IMG/VR virus record: IMGVR_UViG_3300037041_000104
Coordinates: 1 to 32,358 of that record
Reading direction: 5' to 3' (one strand)
Length of the DNA stretch: 32,358 nt
DNA from: a virus
In this document: positions 1-29,942 of the stretch, one piece after another
Layout: every line of letters starts with the position of its first letter
How positions within the stretch are numbered: position 1 is the stretch's first letter
The notes under the pieces: generated by a model
Database searches by the model: none
What the model was told of the DNA's origin: nothing
The model's input: only the letters and a program-made list of their open reading frames with translations
Made by a program: the position numbers and the translations under genes

Positions 1-145
1 TCCCAAATGTATGCTTGATCGCCTGATCTTTTATAAGTTGCCATGACATTACTACCTCTGACTGTCATGTTTTCCCATATGTCGCTATACTTGTTGTTGG
101 GCCATTTGAGCAAACCTGATCCTAATGTGTTTATATTGTTGTCTT
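1..145. repeat. Terminal direct repeat, left copy (circular overlap)
   Basis: These 145 bases are repeated at 32214-32358 with one difference (g at 127, a at 32340). The repeat lies inside a coding sequence that stays in frame across the joined ends. This points to a circular or circularly permuted genome of 32,213 bp rather than a packaged terminal repeat between genes. The mismatch changes codon 121 of the glycosyltransferase from Thr (ACA) to Ile (ATA), as expected for population variation rather than a pure assembly duplicate. Confidence 0.95.
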
Positions 146-488
146 TAACATAACTTACATCTCTGAGTCCTAAGAATAGATTTGGTTCATAAGTCATGTA
201 ATGATCTATGTTACTCATTACGATCATGTCTAAGTCTATGTAAAAGTTTGTGTCGTATTCAAATAGACCTTCTTTAAACATATATGTCTTCCACCACCAA
301 CCTTGTAGTTTGTGTTCTATTGGTAATGGTATAACATTTATGTTACTGTTTAAGTTAGTAGGATCTTCTGTAAGACAGTAAAACTTATACGTGAGTGTGA
401 GGTTTCTCTCAATCATATTGTACATCTTGTTGACATACTCATGATTGTAAACTTTATGCCCGTATTTTACTGTAATTACATTAATCAT
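1..488 (-). CDS. DxD-type glycosyltransferase, N-terminal part (continues at the right end)
   Basis: N-terminal 162 residues of a GT-A-fold glycosyltransferase that would transfer a nucleotide-activated sugar in the host cytoplasm. The start at 488 overlaps the stop of the preceding gene (ATGA). A GWWWK segment (63-67) and a hydrophobic strand ending in DLD (85-87, FYIDLDMIV) are visible; the DxD motif normally binds the metal and nucleotide-sugar. The frame runs off base 1 and joins in frame to 32048-32213, giving a complete 217-aa protein. With the GNGPS-motif and FkbM proteins in the same leftward unit it suggests a glycan-modifying set acting on host surface sugar or on the phage's own fibres (inference). 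Acceptor and sugar are unknown. Confidence 0.8.
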   Translation of the reverse strand, partial: MINVITVKYGHKVYNHEYVNKMYNMIERNLTLTYKFYCLTEDPTNLNSNINVIPLPIEHKLQGWWWKTYMFKEGLFEYDTNFYIDLDMIVMSNIDHYMTYEPNLFLGLRDVSYVKDNNINTLGSGLLKWPNNKYSDIWENMTVRGSNVMATYKRSGDQAYIW

Positions 489-673
489 TCTTTACTTGGA
501 ACAGTTAAGTTAATTTTCTTCTTGCGTGGCTTTTTTGCAGGTCTATCTTCTTTACCACTGACATAAACGTAAACTGTTTTAACTTCCTGTACTTTCTGTT
601 CAGCAGGAATTGGAGTTTCTTCACGCTTCATCTGGTCACGCACCCATTGAATGTAATCTCTTAACATGTTCAT
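485..673 (-). CDS. Hypothetical protein, 62 aa, basic C-terminus
   Basis: Not recognised. The product has an N-terminal predicted helix, a short VYVYV strand and a strongly basic tract (KKPRKKK, about residues 47-53), which might contact nucleic acid. The ATG at 673 overlaps the TGA of the upstream gene and its own TGA overlaps the ATG of the glycosyltransferase (ATGA at both ends). This tight coupling supports it as a real gene of the leftward unit. Confidence 0.65.
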   Translation of the reverse strand: MNMLRDYIQWVRDQMKREETPIPAEQKVQEVKTVYVYVSGKEDRPAKKPRKKKINLTVPSKE

Positions 674-1038
674 ATATAGACCTTTTCGTAATCTTCAGGA
701 TTGTCTTCTGGATCTAGTCCATCAAAGTATTGTCCTGATTGTTTTTCTTTAAACTTTAATGTGCCAAAGACTGACAAGAACTTTTGATTCTTCTTGCCCC
801 AGGCTTGTGTCATTTCTAAGAAACGTTCTTGTCCAAACATAATTTGCAATTGTGTCTTGCAATCTTCAGGACTAGGGTTGATATCGTACTTGGTATCTTT
901 TAATGTATGCATAAAGCCAATGCATTTATCAACTTCATCTTCAGTCATGTGTGGGCTAAGTTCAGTGACCATTTTGTCGAAATGTTTGATGTGCCCAACA
1001 TAGAAGGGCTTGTCGATTAGACCTTTAAATTCTGCCAT
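670..1038 (-). CDS. Hypothetical protein, 122 aa
   Basis: Not recognised. The frame can be opened at a TTG at 1056, but the ATG at 1038 (MAEFKG) has an AAAGGAA ribosome-binding sequence about 8 nt upstream and is preferred. Soluble, charged protein with an acidic C-terminus (DPEDNPEDYEK); no membrane segment or metal motif. It lies in the coupled leftward unit between a 103-aa unknown protein and a 62-aa basic protein. Confidence 0.7.
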   Translation of the reverse strand: MAEFKGLIDKPFYVGHIKHFDKMVTELSPHMTEDEVDKCIGFMHTLKDTKYDINPSPEDCKTQLQIMFGQERFLEMTQAWGKKNQKFLSVFGTLKFKEKQSGQYFDGLDPEDNPEDYEKVYI

Positions 1039-1052
1039 GTCTGTGTTTCCTT

Positions 1053-1364
1053 TCAATGCATTGTTCTACCAAGAACGTTGAGTTCTTCACCAATGTTGAT
1101 GTTAACTCTGCCCCTAAGTTCATGTGCTGTATCTTTTAGATACTGTTCTTGCACAAGAGCACCTAAGAATTCGTGAATGGTCTTGAGACCTAGAATCTTT
1201 AAGTTAAAAATTTCTTTTTCATTGTCTGGCAATGTATCAATGTCAATACCCATCATATGGTGTATTGACTTCTCAATGTCAGTCATCAATGGTTTCACTG
1301 TGACTAATAACTCACCACTTTCATCTTTGGTAAGTTTGTATGTGTATTCAAGTTGTTGGGTCAT
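1053..1364 (-). CDS. Hypothetical protein, 103 aa
   Basis: Not recognised. The ATG at 1364 has AAGGA 7 nt upstream, which decides the start. The gene overlaps the upstream glycan-enzyme gene by 17 nt. Mostly helical by composition, no transmembrane segment and no cysteine motif. Confidence 0.7.
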   Translation of the reverse strand: MTQQLEYTYKLTKDESGELLVTVKPLMTDIEKSIHHMMGIDIDTLPDNEKEIFNLKILGLKTIHEFLGALVQEQYLKDTAHELRGRVNINIGEELNVLGRTMH

Positions 1365-1944
1365 AAATTTCCTTAAATTGTTGTGGTGTTATCTCACTGT
1401 AGTTTGTTGCTGTTATGGATGTTTGTGTATTTGATCCGTTAACTCTAATAAACTTCTTAGTGTCAAATTTCTTGACTATAGTTGTTAGTCTAGACTTCCA
1501 TCTGCGAGTAAGATCATGTGCTGCAGGTATAGTTGAGTTTCTTGCGTAGTTTGTTGTACCATGATAAACATTTGGTAGATTGTCATTACTGTCTGTATAG
1601 TCAAAGCCAATTATGTATATCACATCGTTAGTTTCTGCCGCTAGTTCAAGTGCTGATGTACCACTGTCGTGTGTCATTGGCTTACCCCAAAAGAAGTTAA
1701 TGGGTTCGCCTGTTTCTGCTATCTTGTCTATGCGATTTGTATGCTGTGTATGAAACGAACAACGCTTGTGTACATTGTTCTGTAGTATTTCATCTACCAT
1801 ACTAAAATCCATGCTTACTAGATAGTTGGGTAAAAAGTCTCTGTGTAATCCATTACAACCATACGTGTACATGGTGTGATGTATTGTGTCTAAGTCGAAT
1901 TGTTTACGACTAGGACCATTACCAATGACACACGCTATATTCAT
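1348..1944 (-). CDS. GNGPS-motif glycan enzyme (DUF115 / sialyltransferase-like)
   Basis: 198 aa with an N-terminal Rossmann-type signature VIGNGPSR (6-13), an SMD motif (44-46), and SGTSALELA followed by a strand IIGFD (94-115). This combination is typical of the DUF115/MptE-like family and of GT42-type sialyltransferases, which use the GNGPS loop for a nucleotide-linked donor. Which reaction applies cannot be decided from sequence alone. It lies in the same leftward unit as an FkbM methyltransferase and a DxD glycosyltransferase, favouring a role in sugar transfer or surface-glycan change. Confidence 0.7.
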   Translation of the reverse strand: MNIACVIGNGPSRKQFDLDTIHHTMYTYGCNGLHRDFLPNYLVSMDFSMVDEILQNNVHKRCSFHTQHTNRIDKIAETGEPINFFWGKPMTHDSGTSALELAAETNDVIYIIGFDYTDSNDNLPNVYHGTTNYARNSTIPAAHDLTRRWKSRLTTIVKKFDTKKFIRVNGSNTQTSITATNYSEITPQQFKEIYDPTT

Positions 1945-1946
1945 TA

Positions 1947-2093
1947 TTACTCAGGCTTCTTTGGTTCTTTGTAACCACTAGCGTAGGCGGCTTGTGCTTG
2001 TTTCTCAGCATCTTTCTTGTCTGTGTAAAGTTTACCTTGGTCTCCCCAACGATAGAAAACTTCACCGTTTTTTATTACTCTTTGAATAGGCAT
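1947..2093 (-). CDS. Possible internal translation product, 48 aa
   Basis: In-frame internal start within the zinc-finger gene. AAGGAG lies 7 nt before the ATG at 2093, a better ribosome-binding site than that of the longer frame. The product (YRWGDQGKLYTDKKDAEKQA core) is a compact charged domain of the kind often encoded alone in phages as a short MP-Q-R protein (family recollection, function unknown to me). Confidence 0.5.
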   Translation of the reverse strand: MPIQRVIKNGEVFYRWGDQGKLYTDKKDAEKQAQAAYASGYKEPKKPE

Positions 2094-2279
2094 GTATTTC
2101 TCCTTGCTAGTTGTATTTAGTTCTGCACATACTTCTAAATGTTTGGCAACAGACTTTTCAGTTTTAAGTGATCTATGACATAGACTGCATTTATAACCTA
2201 TAAGTTTCCATGCACCATTGACATATTGATATGTGTTATAGATGGCTAGGTCCCGCTTGTTGTAATGATATTGGCTCAT
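1947..2279 (-). CDS. Zinc-finger protein with a nested downstream start (110 aa)
   Basis: The N-terminal half carries a C-x2-C-x12-H-x3-C zinc finger (C31, C34, H47, C51), the same spacing as the finger at the C-terminus of the HNH endonuclease at 29523-29942. The C-terminal 48 residues (MPIQRVIKNG onward) look like a separate small protein. An in-frame ATG at 2093 is preceded by AAGGAG at ideal distance, so a 48-aa product may be made from 1947-2093 as well. The start at 2279 has GGA 8 nt upstream. The gene overlaps the NUMOD3 gene by 44 nt; the pair may be remains of a homing-endonuclease locus. Confidence 0.7.
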   Translation of the reverse strand: MSQYHYNKRDLAIYNTYQYVNGAWKLIGYKCSLCHRSLKTEKSVAKHLEVCAELNTTSKEKYMPIQRVIKNGEVFYRWGDQGKLYTDKKDAEKQAQAAYASGYKEPKKPE

Positions 2280-2592
2280 TGTTCTTTCCGAATCTTCGTC
2301 TTTGTGCCAAACTCATATTTCTTTTGTGCTGTTCACTCTTAGGTTTGCCAAGTTTAGCCTTTGACATCTTTAATTTAGTCTCAGGGCTCTTGGGCTTTCC
2401 CAAACTTACTCGGCGCATTGCTTCTGCTACCTTTTGATAATGACTTTCACTCATTGGTCCTGTACCGCGGAACCATTCAGTAAATCCTTCTTCTTGTAGT
2501 GGGTTTGGTGTATCTGTAACGCCAAACTTACGAATGTATTTTACTCCGTTACCATCAAAGCGATGCCAACGAGTCCATAAACCTTGTGCCAT
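2236..2592 (-). CDS. NUMOD3-motif protein, 118 aa
   Basis: The ATG at 2592 (MAQGLW) has AGAGGAT just upstream and is preferred to a longer opening at 2652 that would overlap the FkbM gene. The C-terminal half has repeated LGKPKSPETKLKMSKAK / LGKPKSEQHKRNMS segments typical of NUMOD3, a DNA-binding module usually attached to HNH or GIY-YIG homing endonucleases. No nuclease catalytic motif is present, so it is either a stand-alone DNA-binding protein or a broken homing endonuclease. The N-terminal WTRWHRFDGNG and EWFRGTGP segments are unassigned. Confidence 0.7.
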   Translation of the reverse strand: MAQGLWTRWHRFDGNGVKYIRKFGVTDTPNPLQEEGFTEWFRGTGPMSESHYQKVAEAMRRVSLGKPKSPETKLKMSKAKLGKPKSEQHKRNMSLAQRRRFGKNNEPISLQQAGPSHL

Positions 2593-2593
2593 G

Positions 2594-3547
2594 TTATCCT
2601 CTTTTGTTGAAACGTTCTTGAAGTCTTTGTAGGAATTTGATATGAGTGTCATTTCTATCTACCATCTTTTCTAAATAACTATCTACTGGGTGTTCTTTTG
2701 GTAATGCAAGTATGTTTATAACACCACCTTGACCAAACACATTCTTACTGACATTGTTATGATTGCGTGGATTGTAGTTTGGAACTGCAATCCAATACAA
2801 GTTGTAACCTAATTCTGTATGTAAGAAGTCATAAATCTCATCAAAGCCTGATCCATGCATTGCTTCGTAAAAGATTACAGGTGTGTTTTCTCTAATGGTT
2901 TTCTTTGCACCATTAAACACTTTAAGTTCGTGACCCTCAACATCAATCTTAATGACATGAGGTTTGTCTATGTTAAGATCGTCAACACGCAATGTAATGC
3001 AGGGTTGACCAGTTGTTTCATTCATCATGCACTCACCAAAGTTGCCTTGGTCGTTTAGTTCATAATCACTGATGAAACTTCTACCCTTAGTGTCAGACAC
3101 AGCAGCCTTAATCAATGTAACATTTTTAAGTTTCTCTGTGTTCATCTCTAACAGTTTGTAGTTTTTAAGATTAGGTTCAAAACTATACACATGTTTTGCT
3201 CTGTGTGCAAATGCTACAGTGTGATATCCAATGTTGCCACCAATGTCATATACAACTGTGTTTTCGTTAATATGTTGCGCCAACAAATCTATTTCTATTT
3301 GAGTGTATTCGCCATATATACGAATGGATTGTCCAATGATTACATCTTTCTCATAGAAGTAAAAATTGTTAGTGTATCGTGTTCTTGCACTAGCGATACC
3401 ATCGACAATTGCACTAGACATATTGACGATTGTGGGTTTGACACTGTAACTTTCAGGAGGTGCTACTGAAAGGGACTCTGTTTTCACAAGTTCCCAAGAT
3501 ACAATGTTCTGGTCTTGATATACAAGTTTTTGCGTATGATTCATCAT
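2594..3547 (-). CDS. FkbM-family SAM-dependent methyltransferase
   Basis: 317 aa. It shows the SAM-binding motif I VVYDIGGNIGYHT (98-110), the acidic end of strand 2 in SFEPN (122-126) and the family hallmark IKIDVEGHE (199-207). FkbM enzymes are O-methyltransferases acting on sugars or polyketide-type hydroxyls. About 60 residues precede the catalytic core. A CATAAATA element at 3553-3560 would place transcription start on the A of the ATG at 3547, predicting a leaderless message; no ribosome-binding sequence is visible. The context with two glycan enzymes suggests methyl capping of a surface sugar (inference). Confidence 0.88.
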   Translation of the reverse strand: MMNHTQKLVYQDQNIVSWELVKTESLSVAPPESYSVKPTIVNMSSAIVDGIASARTRYTNNFYFYEKDVIIGQSIRIYGEYTQIEIDLLAQHINENTVVYDIGGNIGYHTVAFAHRAKHVYSFEPNLKNYKLLEMNTEKLKNVTLIKAAVSDTKGRSFISDYELNDQGNFGECMMNETTGQPCITLRVDDLNIDKPHVIKIDVEGHELKVFNGAKKTIRENTPVIFYEAMHGSGFDEIYDFLHTELGYNLYWIAVPNYNPRNHNNVSKNVFGQGGVINILALPKEHPVDSYLEKMVDRNDTHIKFLQRLQERFNKRG

Positions 3548-3552
3548 AGACT

Positions 3553-3560
3553 TATTTATG
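3553..3560 (-). promoter_or_regulatory. T4-late-like promoter element CATAAATA
   Basis: CATAAATA read leftwards, immediately before the FkbM gene. With the T4 rule (octamer at -13 to -6) the start would fall at 3547, the first base of the gene. Confidence 0.5.
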
Positions 3561-3578
3561 TATTGCTAAAGTCACTAT

Positions 3579-4022
3579 TTAATTAGTGTGCCATATGTTT
3601 TCTTGTATCCATACTTTGGTGAATACTTGATTACTCTGTAGGTCTATTTTGTGTTGTTCACTGATTGCATCTATTACGTCTATGCTGGTGTTAAGAATGT
3701 CTTGAATGATTTCTAGTTGTACTAATGAAAAGTCGTATTGAGTACCGAATTGTAAGTTGTTCATGGTACCTGCGAGATAACTTTGTGGGCTGTTGTTACT
3801 AGATAGTTTAGTGTTGTAAAGATATCTTTTATTTGATTTCTTGAACCAATTAGCAAAGTCTTTTATGTCTTGGTTCTTGCTAAGTGAAAGTTCTTGCATA
3901 TAACACATGACGCCAATGATACTTGTGACAATGATTTCACGGTCTTCATTTGGTAGTGTTATGTAAGTGGTGTTTGCCTGTGTACGCTTAACGTCATACA
4001 CTATCTTTCTAATTTTACGCAT
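3579..4022 (-). CDS. Hypothetical protein, 147 aa
   Basis: Not recognised. The open frame extends to a TTG at 4151, but the ATG at 4022 (MRKIRK) follows GGAGACTACAAC closely and is preceded by a TATAAATA element, so the shorter form is chosen. Basic N-terminus, a moderately hydrophobic stretch (IIVTSIIGVMCYM, about residues 29-41) too weak to call a membrane segment, and a helical C-terminal half. It has its own promoter within the leftward block. Confidence 0.7.
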   Translation of the reverse strand: MRKIRKIVYDVKRTQANTTYITLPNEDREIIVTSIIGVMCYMQELSLSKNQDIKDFANWFKKSNKRYLYNTKLSSNNSPQSYLAGTMNNLQFGTQYDFSLVQLEIIQDILNTSIDVIDAISEQHKIDLQSNQVFTKVWIQENIWHTN

Positions 4023-4033
4023 GTTGTAGTCTC

Positions 4034-4049
4034 CTATATTGTATTTATA
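4034..4049 (-). promoter_or_regulatory. T4-late-like promoter, 16-bp match to the plus-strand promoter
   Basis: TATAAATACAATATAG on the minus strand, ending a few bases before the GGAG of the gene starting at 4022. The same 16 bases occur on the plus strand at 5363-5378 before the small plus-strand genes. Exact sharing beyond the octamer supports a real promoter. Confidence 0.65.
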
Positions 4050-4122
4050 AGAAATGGCAAAAAACCGTGGATTAAGGCGAAAATAGGGGGAAGAGACCCA
4101 TTCCCCTCCCCCTGTAGGTACA

Positions 4123-4143
4123 ACATACGGCTCACCGGTATGT
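4123..4143. other. Hairpin downstream of the 71-aa gene
   Basis: ACATAC / GTATGT arms with two more G-C pairs around a one-base bulge and a CTCA loop. It lies just after the stop at 4154 in the leftward direction. No T-run follows, so it is not a standard intrinsic terminator. A G-rich/C-rich stretch (GGGGAA ... TTCCCC) lies further left, near 4086-4110. Confidence 0.35.
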
Positions 4144-4153
4144 GTGAGCAACT

Positions 4154-4369
4154 TTATTTATACATTTGATATTGCTCTTTGTTAAGCCACTTGACGAACT
4201 TGCCACCGCAACTCATGCATATAAGTTTTGCGTAATGTGGACCTGGTGTGATTGTAGTTAACAGTTTGTGATCGTCATGATCTTTAGGCAATGGTTTTTC
4301 TAATTTACTGTCCCATGCTCTGGTACCATTTGGTACATACTTTGGTCTGTTCCAATTTATATTGCTCAT
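4154..4369 (-). CDS. Small CxxC-motif protein, 71 aa
   Basis: The C-terminal half has the pattern GPHYAKLICMSCGGKFVKWL, a short phage protein type with one CxxC (residues 51-54) that I remember from DNA-metabolism clusters of many phages; its function is not established. The start overlaps the stop of the 269-aa gene by 4 nt (ATGA), indicating translational coupling. The single CxxC may bind metal in a dimer (inference). Confidence 0.7.
   Translation of the reverse strand: MSNINWNRPKYVPNGTRAWDSKLEKPLPKDHDDHKLLTTITPGPHYAKLICMSCGGKFVKWLNKEQYQMYK
4155..4162 (-). promoter_or_regulatory. T4-late-like promoter element TATAAATA
   Basis: TATAAATA on the minus strand, overlapping the stop of the 71-aa gene and about 130 nt before the start at 4022. 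A second copy at 4042-4049 lies closer to that gene, so this one may be redundant or drive a longer leader. Confidence 0.4.
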
Positions 4370-5175
4370 GATAACTCCTCATCATCTTCAAACTGATCCA
4401 TGTCATTGCGCCATATGCCGGCTGCTTGATAAAACTTTGATTGCTTTTCTGTAACTTCATTGTTGAGAGGAATTTTTATCCATTCGTCTAGCAAATAAAA
4501 CATTGCTTCTAATTCATCATCTTCATTTGTGTAGATTGAAATCATTGCGTGTTTTAACAACTTGCGATGAAAGTTAGTTGTTTGGCAACGAACAGGTTTG
4601 TAATGAAGTCTTGCTATCATACACTTTGGATGTTCTTCCCAAAGAGTCTCGATTGTTGAAAGCACTGTTAAGTTTTCTTTAGTACCACGCTTTAACTCAG
4701 TCAAGCAATTAGTTGCGGCACCTGCTAAGAAAACTGAATATTTGCGATCGGTATCTGTCTTTAAACTGATATAGACTTTTGCTCTCATGTAACGACCTTC
4801 GGTTCTTACATTACCAATCTGCACACCAATCTCTACATATTTGTCATGTACACTTAGTCGCTTGTACCCAATTGGCTCCGTTGATCCTATCTCTCCCCGG
4901 TCTCCCGGTATTCCTTGGACTTCTTTCACCTCGGGCGCTTGCGCCGGCGAAGCAGGAGAAAGAGGCGTCGAAGACGCATCAAGATTATCAACACTTGTGT
5001 TGTAATCTATTCTAGTTCTAATACCGTTTCTTTTTGAATTAGAATTGGTATTAGAATAGATTACAACATTGTCGTTTAAATTAAATTCTGTACCCAACTC
5101 TTTGGGTTGATGATGTTTAGTGTTAATTGGAATGCCAATACTAGCCAAAAGTTCTTCTGCGGTCAAATTTTGCAT
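4366..5175 (-). CDS. Unknown 269-aa protein, first gene of the leftward block; replication-initiator candidate
   Basis: Not recognised by motif. The ATG at 5175 follows AAGGAG. Architecture: a short N-terminal region, an Asn/Ser-rich then Pro/Ala-rich low-complexity linker (about residues 40-105, including PLSPASPAQAPE and a collagen-like GIPGDRGEIG), then a folded alpha/beta C-terminal part ending in acidic DDEE. The linker DNA holds a 22-bp inverted repeat (4998-5068) and a GC-rich patch with hairpins (about 4880-4980). A structured linker inside a protein gene recalls lambda O, where the origin lies inside the initiator gene. That parallel and the 5' position are the only grounds for suggesting a replication role. 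Confidence 0.7.
   Translation of the reverse strand: MQNLTAEELLASIGIPINTKHHQPKELGTEFNLNDNVVIYSNTNSNSKRNGIRTRIDYNTSVDNLDASSTPLSPASPAQAPEVKEVQGIPGDRGEIGSTEPIGYKRLSVHDKYVEIGVQIGNVRTEGRYMRAKVYISLKTDTDRKYSVFLAGAATNCLTELKRGTKENLTVLSTIETLWEEHPKCMIARLHYKPVRCQTTNFHRKLLKHAMISIYTNEDDELEAMFYLLDEWIKIPLNNEVTEKQSKFYQAAGIWRNDMDQFEDDEELS
4934..4977. other. GC-rich hairpin pair inside the 269-aa gene
   Basis: Two short perfect hairpins, GGCG-CTTG-CGCC (4934-4945) and GCGTC-GAA-GACGC (4965-4977), in a locally GC-rich patch of an otherwise AT-rich genome. They coincide with the Pro/Ala-rich linker, so coding bias explains part of the composition. Confidence 0.4.
4998..5068. repeat. 22-bp inverted repeat inside the 269-aa gene
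   Basis: The right arm 5047-5068 is matched in reverse complement by 4998-5014 plus 5021-5025, with a 6-base insertion (5015-5020) in the left arm; the central loop is 21 nt. Each arm contains the 11-mer ATAGATTACAA or its complement, which occurs a third time at 5375-5385 on the predicted start of the plus-strand transcript. This looks like a protein-binding or origin element rather than a coding accident. Confidence 0.65.
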
Positions 5176-5362: not shown

Positions 5363-5378
5363 TATAAATACAATATAG
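5363..5378 (+). promoter_or_regulatory. T4-late-like promoter for the plus-strand genes
   Basis: TATAAATACAATATAG on the plus strand, identical over 16 bases to the minus-strand element at 4034-4049. The octamer ends at 5370, 35 nt before the ATG at 5406; the predicted start near 5376 falls inside the repeated 11-mer ATAGATTACAA (5375-5385). A poor -35-like TTTACC lies 17 nt upstream, so ordinary sigma-70 use cannot be excluded. Confidence 0.6.
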
Positions 5379-6152: not shown

Positions 6153-6392
6153 ATGACCAAGTATGTATTCATCAAATCAAAAGTAAGAATCGCAGAGGAG
6201 TTGCATCGACTCTGGGATAACTATCCATTGTACAAATTTATAAATGGTGCTCAATGGGTGCGTAAACGTGAATTAGAAATTGCCGAATGTCTTACCGAGA
6301 ACGATGATTGGATTGAAGTCTGTCGTGTAGTTTGGCAACAAAGACAAGACGAATTAGAAAAGTCTAATAAGAAGAAAACAAGACGATTATGA
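6153..6392 (+). CDS. Hypothetical protein, 79 aa
   Basis: Not recognised. Basic, Trp-containing, helical protein ending in KKKTRRL. There is no convincing ribosome-binding sequence; the ATG lies 28 nt after the terminator hairpin. The stop overlaps the start of a 20-codon basic ORF (ATGA). Confidence 0.6.
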   Translation: MTKYVFIKSKVRIAEELHRLWDNYPLYKFINGAQWVRKRELEIAECLTENDDWIEVCRVVWQQRQDELEKSNKKKTRRL

Positions 6393-6451
6393 AACTAAAC
6401 AGGCGTAAGCGCAAACAGATACAACGAATGTTAAAGTTGTTGATGAAATAA
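6389..6451 (+). CDS. Tiny basic peptide, 20 aa
   Basis: ATGA-coupled to the preceding gene and ending directly on the terminator at 6452. The 20 residues include nine Lys/Arg (MKLNRRKRKQIQRMLKLLMK), an arginine-rich amphipathic helix of the type that binds RNA in lambdoid N proteins. That similarity is compositional only. Confidence 0.4.
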   Translation: MKLNRRKRKQIQRMLKLLMK

Positions 6452-6596
6452 AAAAAGCCCCTTAATTGGGGCTTTTTGTTATAAAGTAGTGTGCGAAAGA
6501 TTGTCTATTTAGGAATACTTATATGGCGTATAAGTGAGTGATTTAAGGACAATCTAGGTATGCATTTAGATTTTACAAAGCAACAATCTCTCGCAC
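6450..6596 (-). ncRNA. Predicted structured small RNA, about 147 nt
   Basis: Minus-strand unit with promoter-like AATAAATA (6602-6609), a branched fold and an intrinsic terminator. P1: 6583-6596 pairs with 6491-6504 over 14 contiguous bp. The one non-Watson-Crick position is G-U on the minus RNA but A-C on the plus RNA, which favours this strand. P2: AATCTA/TAGATT (6567-6572 with 6551-6556) with a 10-nt loop holding the palindrome ATGCAT. P3: ACTTATA/TATAAGT (6529-6535 with 6517-6523) with loop CGCCA. T4 spacing puts the transcript start at 6596, the first base of P1. No ORF fits. Not a tRNA; role unknown. Confidence 0.6.
6452..6477. terminator. Bidirectional intrinsic terminator
   Basis: AAAAAGCCCC (6452-6461) and GGGGCTTTTT (6468-6477) form a 10-bp stem with a TTAATT loop. 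Read rightwards it ends the plus-strand cluster with TTTTTG. Read leftwards it is followed by seven Ts (6456-6450) and would end the structured minus-strand RNA starting at 6596. Confidence 0.9.
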
Positions 6597-6601
6597 AACT
6601 G

Positions 6602-6609
6602 TATTTATT
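6602..6609 (-). promoter_or_regulatory. T4-late-like promoter element AATAAATA for the structured RNA
   Basis: AATAAATAC read leftwards, just after the stop of the Dps-like gene. The only thing downstream in this direction before a terminator is the structured region 6450-6596. Confidence 0.55.
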
Positions 6610-6629
6610 CCATCCGGTGCAAAAAATAA

Positions 6630-7064
6630 TTATTCTGTAGTGCTACGTAGTTTCCACATAACCTTACCCAACTTATCCATTTCACCTTCTAGAAAATTAA
6701 TTAAGCCATATTGCTTAAACTCGCTTGCGATATCGTGACATTCTTCGTAATGGTTCATCAAAGTTTGACTGTCAGCAAGAAGTTGTTTGGTCATCTCCAT
6801 TGCGTCAGGAACTTTGTCGCTGTCTTTAATATCGCCTAGTTCACTAATTCGCTTTAAACTGAATGGGGCAACACCCTGAATAACACGAATCTTTTCACCG
6901 ATCATATCGATATTCTCTTGAGCAGGCTCATACACTTGACTGAACAAATCATGGAACTGTGTGAAATCAGGTCCAACTGTATTAACGTGATAGCCATGAG
7001 CCTTTGTGTAGTATTGGAAGTTGACTGCGAACAAACGCTTCATTGCTTCAATTAATGTTTCCAT
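6630..7064 (-). CDS. Dps-like mini-ferritin
   Basis: 144 aa, close to Dps length (150-170). The order of motifs follows Dps: KAHGYHVN (21-28, aligning with the THNYHWN region), F-x3-H38, and NIDMIGEKIR (51-60) with D53 and E57, ending in a KLGKVMWKLR helix. In Dps dodecamers these residues form the iron-oxidising ferroxidase centre between subunits; H26, H38, D53 and E57 are present, but the acidic residue expected four after H38 is Ser42. Likely roles are iron/peroxide detoxification or DNA binding. The start is set by AAAGGAA; an AATAAATA element lies 17 nt upstream. It is read last after the tail-fibre genes. Confidence 0.75.
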   Translation of the reverse strand: METLIEAMKRLFAVNFQYYTKAHGYHVNTVGPDFTQFHDLFSQVYEPAQENIDMIGEKIRVIQGVAPFSLKRISELGDIKDSDKVPDAMEMTKQLLADSQTLMNHYEECHDIASEFKQYGLINFLEGEMDKLGKVMWKLRSTTE

Positions 7065-12405: not shown

Positions 12406-12417
12406 TATTTATTTATA
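12406..12417 (-). promoter_or_regulatory. T4-late-like promoter, two overlapping octamers
   Basis: TATAAATAAATA read leftwards contains TATAAATA (12410-12417) and AATAAATA (12406-12413), just after the stop of the propeller gene and 79 nt before the ATG at 12327. Confidence 0.55.
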
Positions 12418-15793: not shown

Positions 15794-15801
15794 TATTTAT
15801 A
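15794..15801 (-). promoter_or_regulatory. T4-late-like promoter element TATAAATA before the fibre block
   Basis: TATAAATAC read leftwards, 19 nt before the ATG at 15774, with AAGGA in the short predicted leader. It would start a fibre transcription unit separate from the tail-tip gene. Confidence 0.55.
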
Positions 15802-24132: not shown

Positions 24133-24140
24133 TATTTATT
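24133..24140 (-). promoter_or_regulatory. T4-late-like promoter element AATAAATA before the chaperones
   Basis: AATAAATACAATACAA read leftwards, resembling the TATAAATACAATATAG elements at 4034 and 5363 over most of its length; 27 nt before the ATG at 24105. Confidence 0.55.
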
Positions 24141-27813: not shown

Positions 27814-27821
27814 TATTTATA
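27814..27821 (-). promoter_or_regulatory. T4-late-like promoter element TATAAATA before the scaffold/capsid genes
   Basis: TATAAATAC read leftwards, 47 nt before the ATG at 27766, in the 76-nt gap after the portal gene. AAAGGA follows in the predicted leader. Confidence 0.6.
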
Positions 27822-29522: not shown

Positions 29523-29942
29523 TTATGGCTTATGTTTGCACTTATCCATGTGCCAAAGACCGTGTGTTGTAACAGGACCTTCTACACCACAATGGGGGCA
29601 AACTGTTCTATTCACTGGGCCTGTACGTCGGGGTGATTTGTTATGTCTATCATTAGCAATCATGTTATCTACAATATTCTGTCTTGTAGCAGGGTATAAA
29701 TGATCGGGATTGACGCAAATGTAGTTGTAACATGTGTGTCCTATCTCTACGCCAATTGGTATGGGTGAGTTATGATGTTGTTCATAACTTACACGATGCG
29801 TTAACTTCATGCGACTACCATCTCTTATAAAGCCATAGCCTGCATTGTTAGTTGCACCTTGCCATTCCCAACATCCATTGTCTTGCACAATCAATCTACT
29901 AAACAATCGTGACTGCACTGGTTCATACTTTCCTTTTGTCAT
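29523..29942 (-). CDS. HNH endonuclease with C-terminal zinc finger
   Basis: 139 aa. HNH_3-type core: CWEWQGATNNAGYG (24-37), HR (49-50), EIGHTCYN (66-73) and CVNPDHLYP (76-84), giving the catalytic His-Asn-His set. The C-terminus carries C115-x2-C118-x12-H131-x3-C135, the same finger spacing as in the 110-aa protein at 1947-2279. GGAG lies before the ATG. Between terL and portal it could act as a homing endonuclease or as the HNH partner that some HK97-like terminases need; the finger favours the former. Confidence 0.85.
   Translation of the reverse strand: MTKGKYEPVQSRLFSRLIVQDNGCWEWQGATNNAGYGFIRDGSRMKLTHRVSYEQHHNSPIPIGVEIGHTCYNYICVNPDHLYPATRQNIVDNMIANDRHNKSPRRTGPVNRTVCPHCGVEGPVTTHGLWHMDKCKHKP

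Follow-up and report, generated by a model that had tools for sequence, protein, structure and literature searches.

A conserved structured RNA with anti-Shine-Dalgarno-like motifs at the end of the late gene block of uncultivated phages

The RNA gene and its place in the window

The DNA analyzed here (the window) is a viral record from IMG/VR with a length of 32,358 bases. Its minus strand carries terminase, portal, scaffold, tape measure, J-like and tail-fibre genes, with a Dps-like gene last. Directly downstream of the Dps-like gene, and facing small plus-strand genes, lies an element that an earlier note had described as a free-standing structured RNA with its own promoter element and terminator (6450-6609, minus strand). 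Sequence comparisons support this reading, and we refer to the predicted product as late-block RNA. By direct reading, all of the elements in that description were found on the minus strand, placed correctly to the base. They are given below with the features added by our analysis; members are the contigs that carry the RNA.

6630..7064, minus strand: ferritin/Dps-like gene, directly upstream of the RNA gene (PF00210, E 2e-17; phrog_3636)
6602..6609, minus strand: late-type promoter box AATAAATA, by direct reading; a box is present in essentially all members
6596, minus strand: predicted transcription start at the first closing-helix base, from T4-late spacing (box, 5 nt, +1)
6583..6596, minus strand: 5' arm of the closing helix, 14 bp, with family covariation
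6551..6572, minus strand: hairpin 1, loop AAUGCAUACC, from fold and covariation
6541..6549, minus strand: first exposed anti-Shine-Dalgarno (anti-SD)-like stretch, UCCUUAAAU, containing UCCU; predicted unpaired probability 0.97
6517..6535, minus strand: hairpin 2, ACUUAUA-CGCCA-UAUAAGU, with covariation
6507..6515, minus strand: second exposed anti-SD-like stretch, UUCCUAAAU (family form UUCCUUUA), 12-15 nt (mode 13) from the hairpin 2 GCC in the family
6491..6504, minus strand: 3' arm of the closing helix, with family covariation
6450..6477, minus strand: rho-independent terminator, AAAAAGCCCC-AATTAA-GGGGCTTTTTTT, from a terminator scan

The claimed T4-late spacing is present, with 5 nt between AATAAATA and the first base of the closing helix. 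As described, GTGCGAGAGATTGT (6596-6583) pairs with ACAATCTTTCGCAC (6504-6491) in a 14-bp stem whose single G-U would be A-C on the opposite strand, and it encloses hairpins at 6572-6551 (loop with ATGCAT) and 6535-6517 (ACTTATA-CGCCA-TATAAGT). The terminator (stem 6477-6452, then a T-run) is the sole terminator-like site within 6300-6700, where 0.2 would be expected. The box AATAAATA by itself is at chance level in the window (4 seen, 3.5 expected). Folding of the 160-nt minus strand yields -46.0 kcal/mol (z -7.2), a value equaled by none of 200 shuffles. Because the plus strand of the element is stable too (z -5.2), the choice of strand depends on evidence other than folding energy.

At least 181 viral contigs encode relatives of the window's terminase. 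Among isolates and complete genomes, the nearest ones found, all distant, are Methylophilaceae phage P19250A, Phage DSL-LC06 and some Pelagibacter phages; the tape measure, J and terminase of P19250A and DSL-LC06 are distantly related to those of the window. DSL-LC06 is also annotated with sialyltransferase, FkbM and glycosyltransferase. In the window, a non-structural block (1-5175, minus strand) includes an FkbM-type methyltransferase (2594-3547) and a phrog_30607 protein (1348-1944), and relatives carry glycosyltransferase and sialyltransferase-like genes. The Dps-like protein resembles a protein of Synechococcus phage S-SRM01 annotated as DNA starvation/stationary phase protection.

Homologues, covariation and the acting strand

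Using covariance models, we detected homologues of late-block RNA in 30 uncultivated phage contigs, along with a probable 31st. There is one copy per record (13 model matches checked), and the members inspected share an ATAAATA-type box, a closing helix of 12-16 bp, one or two inner hairpins and a terminator nearby. Several routes led to these members. L001 was reached through a Dps-like neighbour 74% identical to that of the window and L030 through a DNA pattern; both have box, helix and loops as in the window, with the helix letters altered. Chance matches predominate among the matches listed for this first pattern, L030 being among those listed, and a second pattern of higher specificity yielded already-known members only. 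A box-plus-helix scan of whole contigs from terminase relatives returned 11 members. A search with an alignment of the Dps-like protein (A5) identified 23 loci, and at 21 of these the model places the RNA directly 3' of the gene. At L297 the RNA site is lost at the contig end, and the GC-rich L301 is weak by model, yet syntenic and equipped with a 13-bp helix. A second model and a new DNA pattern added L336, L354, L369, L402 and L408; five of the 87 stretches matching the new pattern are new members, and several of the remainder are the antisense of ordinary start sites (GCCAT-N-TCCTTTA).

MAFFT misaligned the helices of the first three members, and member alignments were therefore based on covariance models. 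A model built from five members, with the window excluded, recovers the window at E 3e-6, plus five others. In the 28-row alignment, which includes one antisense row (L281), 98.8% of closing-helix cells pair and 11 of 12 pairs show two-sided changes. All modelled pairs of the inner hairpins covary (3/3 in hairpin 1, with 82% of cells paired; 5/5 in hairpin 2, with 88.6%). The covariation score is 0.687, versus 0.20 for shuffles and at most 0.12 when the partners are slid, although the alignment, being fitted to the structure, is biased in its favour. The helices can also be recognized by eye in unaligned sequence, and each of 12 members out-folds all 200 of its own shuffles. A homologous structure and compensatory changes, whose absence the earlier note had named as grounds against the RNA, were thus both found across the 30 contigs, with box, helix and terminator kept. 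On these comparisons, we consider it close to certain that late-block RNA is a selected RNA structure.

Closing-helix cells from 21 members comprise 234 Watson-Crick pairs, 14 G-U, 1 A-C and 1 other. The excess of G-U over A-C identifies the minus-strand RNA as the functional molecule. It also bears on a different account of the locus, in which the conserved object would be a DNA element (an inverted-repeat protein site, a packaging site or a cruciform) or a small open reading frame (ORF) antisense to it on the plus strand. The DNA does contain a near-perfect inverted repeat, the plus strand folds as noted above, and GCCAT-N8-TCCTTTA reads as SD-N8-ATGGC on the opposite strand. However, the asymmetry between G-U and A-C fits selection on one RNA strand and not a DNA repeat, and the opposite-strand ORFs are short (2-54 codons) and unalignable, with the ATG absent in about a third of members. 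We therefore rejected both the inverted repeat and the antisense ORF, and consider this account extremely improbable.

No Rfam family matched the window at the gathering threshold, and permissive scans gave terminator-like or chance matches only. Searches of isolate phages with the RNA by blastn returned terminator matches or nothing; none of the isolate phages tested carries late-block RNA, and neither P19250A nor DSL-LC06 has a model match for it. A prophage and host search of genome contigs using the terminase large subunit (TerL) and Dps-like alignments found nothing, and literature searches found no description of such an RNA. Late-block RNA is a new RNA family, absent from the sources searched.

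Promoter box, terminator and neighbouring genes

The box of late-block RNA matches the late-gene promoter motif of the phages themselves. In this phage family, ATAAATA is concentrated between genes, with 78 occurrences in 20.8 kb of intergenic sequence as against 52 in 428.5 kb of coding sequence. It lies for the most part 20-80 nt ahead of late genes, on the sense strand, and its extended form is ATAAATACATTAT. In the window, motifs of the ATAAATA(C/G)NNTTAT type lie at 5363-5370 on the plus strand and at 12406-12417, 15794-15801, 24133-24140 and 27814-27821 on the minus strand; they are present in related contigs as well. In nearly all members the box is 4-6 nt before the closing helix, a spacing from which we infer that transcription would start at the first helix base. 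The TATAAATA-type box, its spacing and its position upstream of late genes are reminiscent of T4 late promoters. Unlike T4, these phages are about 36 kb in size and have siphovirus-type tail genes, and neither gp55 nor gp33 was recognized among the proteins scanned, a part of the genes in which a divergent copy could escape notice.

A hairpin and T-run terminator lies 3' of the RNA in the members inspected. In many of them, including L285 (3117-3130), L295 (1890-1903), L240 (401-414) and about a dozen more, the terminator loop is GTTTTTAGTCATTC. At the loci examined, this sequence occurs once per genome and only behind late-block RNA, which suggests that in a sub-clade the functional RNA includes the terminator hairpin; the window lacks this loop sequence.

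The position of the RNA raises an alternative in which it forms the 3' end of the late operon, helix and terminator shielding read-through late mRNAs from 3' exonucleases and the separate promoter being secondary. Indeed, the RNA closes the late block, with no sign of another terminator separating it from the last gene. A protective helix would nevertheless have no need of the conserved UCCU, GCCA and GCAUA motifs described below. Moreover, essentially all members retain a box at 4-6 nt from the helix, including L286 and L288, in which the box and the stop codon of the upstream gene overlap (TGAATAAATAG). We regard this alternative as unlikely.

The gene next to the RNA is not always Dps-like. 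The upstream neighbour is an HNH-like gene in L030, L336 and L369 and a spanin-like gene of 60-73 aa in L354 and L408. Because the RNA keeps its place at the late-block end despite these changes, it is no appendage of the Dps-like gene. The window has a homologue of the HNH-like gene of L030, L336 and L369 between its portal and terminase genes (ORF at 29523-29942, minus strand), probably a homing endonuclease moving between intergenic sites. In the 25 kb of the L030 record (G002) examined, we recognized no homologue of the window's TerL, capsid, tape measure or J. The presence of the RNA beside differing genes, and in G002 without these homologues, hints at horizontal spread or great age.

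Conserved motifs and possible function

The interior of the molecule contains short motifs that are far more common than chance predicts, in counts against 300 shuffles that ignore kinship. UCCU is present in 23/23 member interiors (shuffle mean 7.0, maximum 13), UCCUU in 21/23 (2.5 in shuffles), GCCA in 19/23 (2.3) and GCAUA in 17/23 (1.2), while GGA is rare (2, versus 5 in shuffles). In a larger set, UCCU is found in 28/28 and CCUCC in 0/28. UCCU is predicted to be unpaired with a probability of about 0.8-1.0 in most members, as compared with 0.36-0.51 for the whole molecule, and it is retained in L300 and L301, which have lost hairpin 1. The distance from the hairpin 2 GCC to UCCU is 12-15 nt (mode 13), with hairpin 2 stems of about 4 to 8 bp.

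The earlier note had suggested loop-loop dimers through a palindrome in one loop and had likened the outline of the RNA to phi29 packaging RNA (pRNA). Neither suggestion held up beyond that outline. GCATA (17/23) is at least as frequent as TGCAT (16/23), L237 has CGCATA, and several members lack the palindrome, some having no such loop. The pRNA of phi29 has a helix formed from the RNA ends and two stem-loops, with structure conserved over sequence, and late-block RNA resembles it in these respects; its expected late expression would also suit a packaging RNA. However, no Rfam family, including any pRNA covariance model, matches at gathering score, and conserved complementary loops are absent. 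The packaging ATPase differs as well: rather than being a phi29-type, RNA-dependent ATPase (gp16), that of the window belongs to ordinary terminase families (phrog_2, E 1.3e-35; Terminase_6N), with no C-terminal nuclease model matched by the large terminase. Finally, G002 carries the RNA in 25 kb without a recognizable homologue of the window's TerL, capsid, tape measure or J. A packaging role in the manner of phi29 is thus very unlikely.

Start sites in these phages read AAGGAA, AGGAAA, TAAGGA or AAAGGA, and GGAGG occurs in <2% of genes; UCCU therefore suits the phages' own Shine-Dalgarno (SD) sites. Windows around UCCU pair more strongly with own SD windows (-5.3 kcal/mol) than with coding windows (-3.7 kcal/mol; p 3e-30), a preference expected of any anti-SD-like motif. 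The alpha-r14 sRNA NfeR1 provides a bacterial precedent: it acts in trans and silences mRNAs by covering their ribosome-binding sites with unpaired anti-SD motifs, which are carried by stems that differ in sequence (PMC10746234). Late-block RNA shares with alpha-r14 (NfeR1 of Sinorhizobium meliloti) an unpaired anti-SD motif on stems of variable sequence, here UCCU. It differs in architecture, having a closing helix around two hairpins and UCCU(UUA) where alpha-r14 has three hairpins with CCUCCUCCC in each, and in being phage-borne with a late-type promoter. As the defining CCUCCUCCC is absent, late-block RNA is not a member of alpha-r14 and at best works like one.

Given the conservation of UCCU, its predicted exposure, its fit to phage SD sites and the precedent of NfeR1, we tentatively favour an RNA that acts in trans to cover ribosome-binding sites late in infection; we view this as the best explanation, though its chances fall somewhat short of even. 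The phages' own ATAAATA-type promoter would drive transcription late in infection, and the RNA's own terminator would end the transcript. The covarying closing helix at the 5' end and the inner hairpins would serve as a scaffold displaying unpaired UCCU(UUA) beside the hairpin loops GCAUA and GCCA. By pairing with mRNAs at their SD regions (AAGGA/AAAGGA), these elements could keep ribosomes from binding, resulting in late-phase translational repression in trans of host mRNAs or the phage's own transcripts. Against this explanation, no specific target emerged: when whole interiors were paired with sequences of their own phages, start regions did no better than coding regions. Nor was co-evolution apparent, as own and other members' RNAs differed by only -0.10 +/- 0.11 kcal/mol at own start regions.

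This explanation also leaves the GCAUA and GCCA loops unaccounted for. In its main rival, the loops and the flanking UCCU elements would instead be recognized by a phage or host protein, and the RNA would serve as a decoy, as a scaffold or to inhibit a host or defence protein. The loops are nearly as conserved as UCCU (GCCA 19/23, GCATA 17/23), the GCC-to-UCCU distance stays at 12-15 nt despite variation of the stem, as expected of a fixed footprint, and the mRNA target search found no target. Against protein binding, there is no candidate partner, the Dps-like gene is not adjacent in several members, and UCCU persists where hairpin 1 is lost (L300, L301). We judge protein binding to be possible, if rather less than likely. 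The loop YGCCA presumably resembles tRNA-Gly, and a mimic of an anticodon arm was also considered.

A bolder version of the SD-occluding RNA would have it complement the whole translation start region, so that many start sites would be capped together in the late phase. GCCAU in the hairpin 2 loop, 8+/-1 nt and UCCUUUA together form the reverse complement of UAAAGGA-N8-AUGGC. The start sites of the phages have the same spacing (AGGA-N7..9-ATG, mode 7-8), and about a fifth begin ATGGC. By its sequence, hairpin 1 (GCAU, 8-11 nt, UCCU) may be a second start-region module. If this version is true, the RNA mimics a 30S subunit with initiator tRNA reading an mRNA. Weighing against it, about a third of members lack the AU of GCCAU despite the conservation of GCC, and pairing with the own phage is overall not above chance. 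We consider the bolder version quite improbable.

Small phage RNAs without a known role include RNAC and RNAD of T4 (PMC3014915), which sit in the T4 tRNA region and are likened to late-block RNA by description alone. As of a 2010 review, no structured trans-acting phage RNA had been functionally characterized in T4 (PMC3014915).

Late-block RNA is defined by strong covariation in 30 phage contigs and comes with a built-in promoter box and terminator. To our knowledge, few families of structured phage RNAs that act in trans are well supported. The locus also brings to light a promoter system resembling that of T4 late genes in small siphovirus-type phages, among whose scanned proteins no late sigma factor was recognized, and it offers a precise prediction, namely that exposed UCCU blocks ribosome-binding sites. 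Many uncultivated aquatic phages thus probably carry a previously undescribed regulatory RNA that would be used late in infection.
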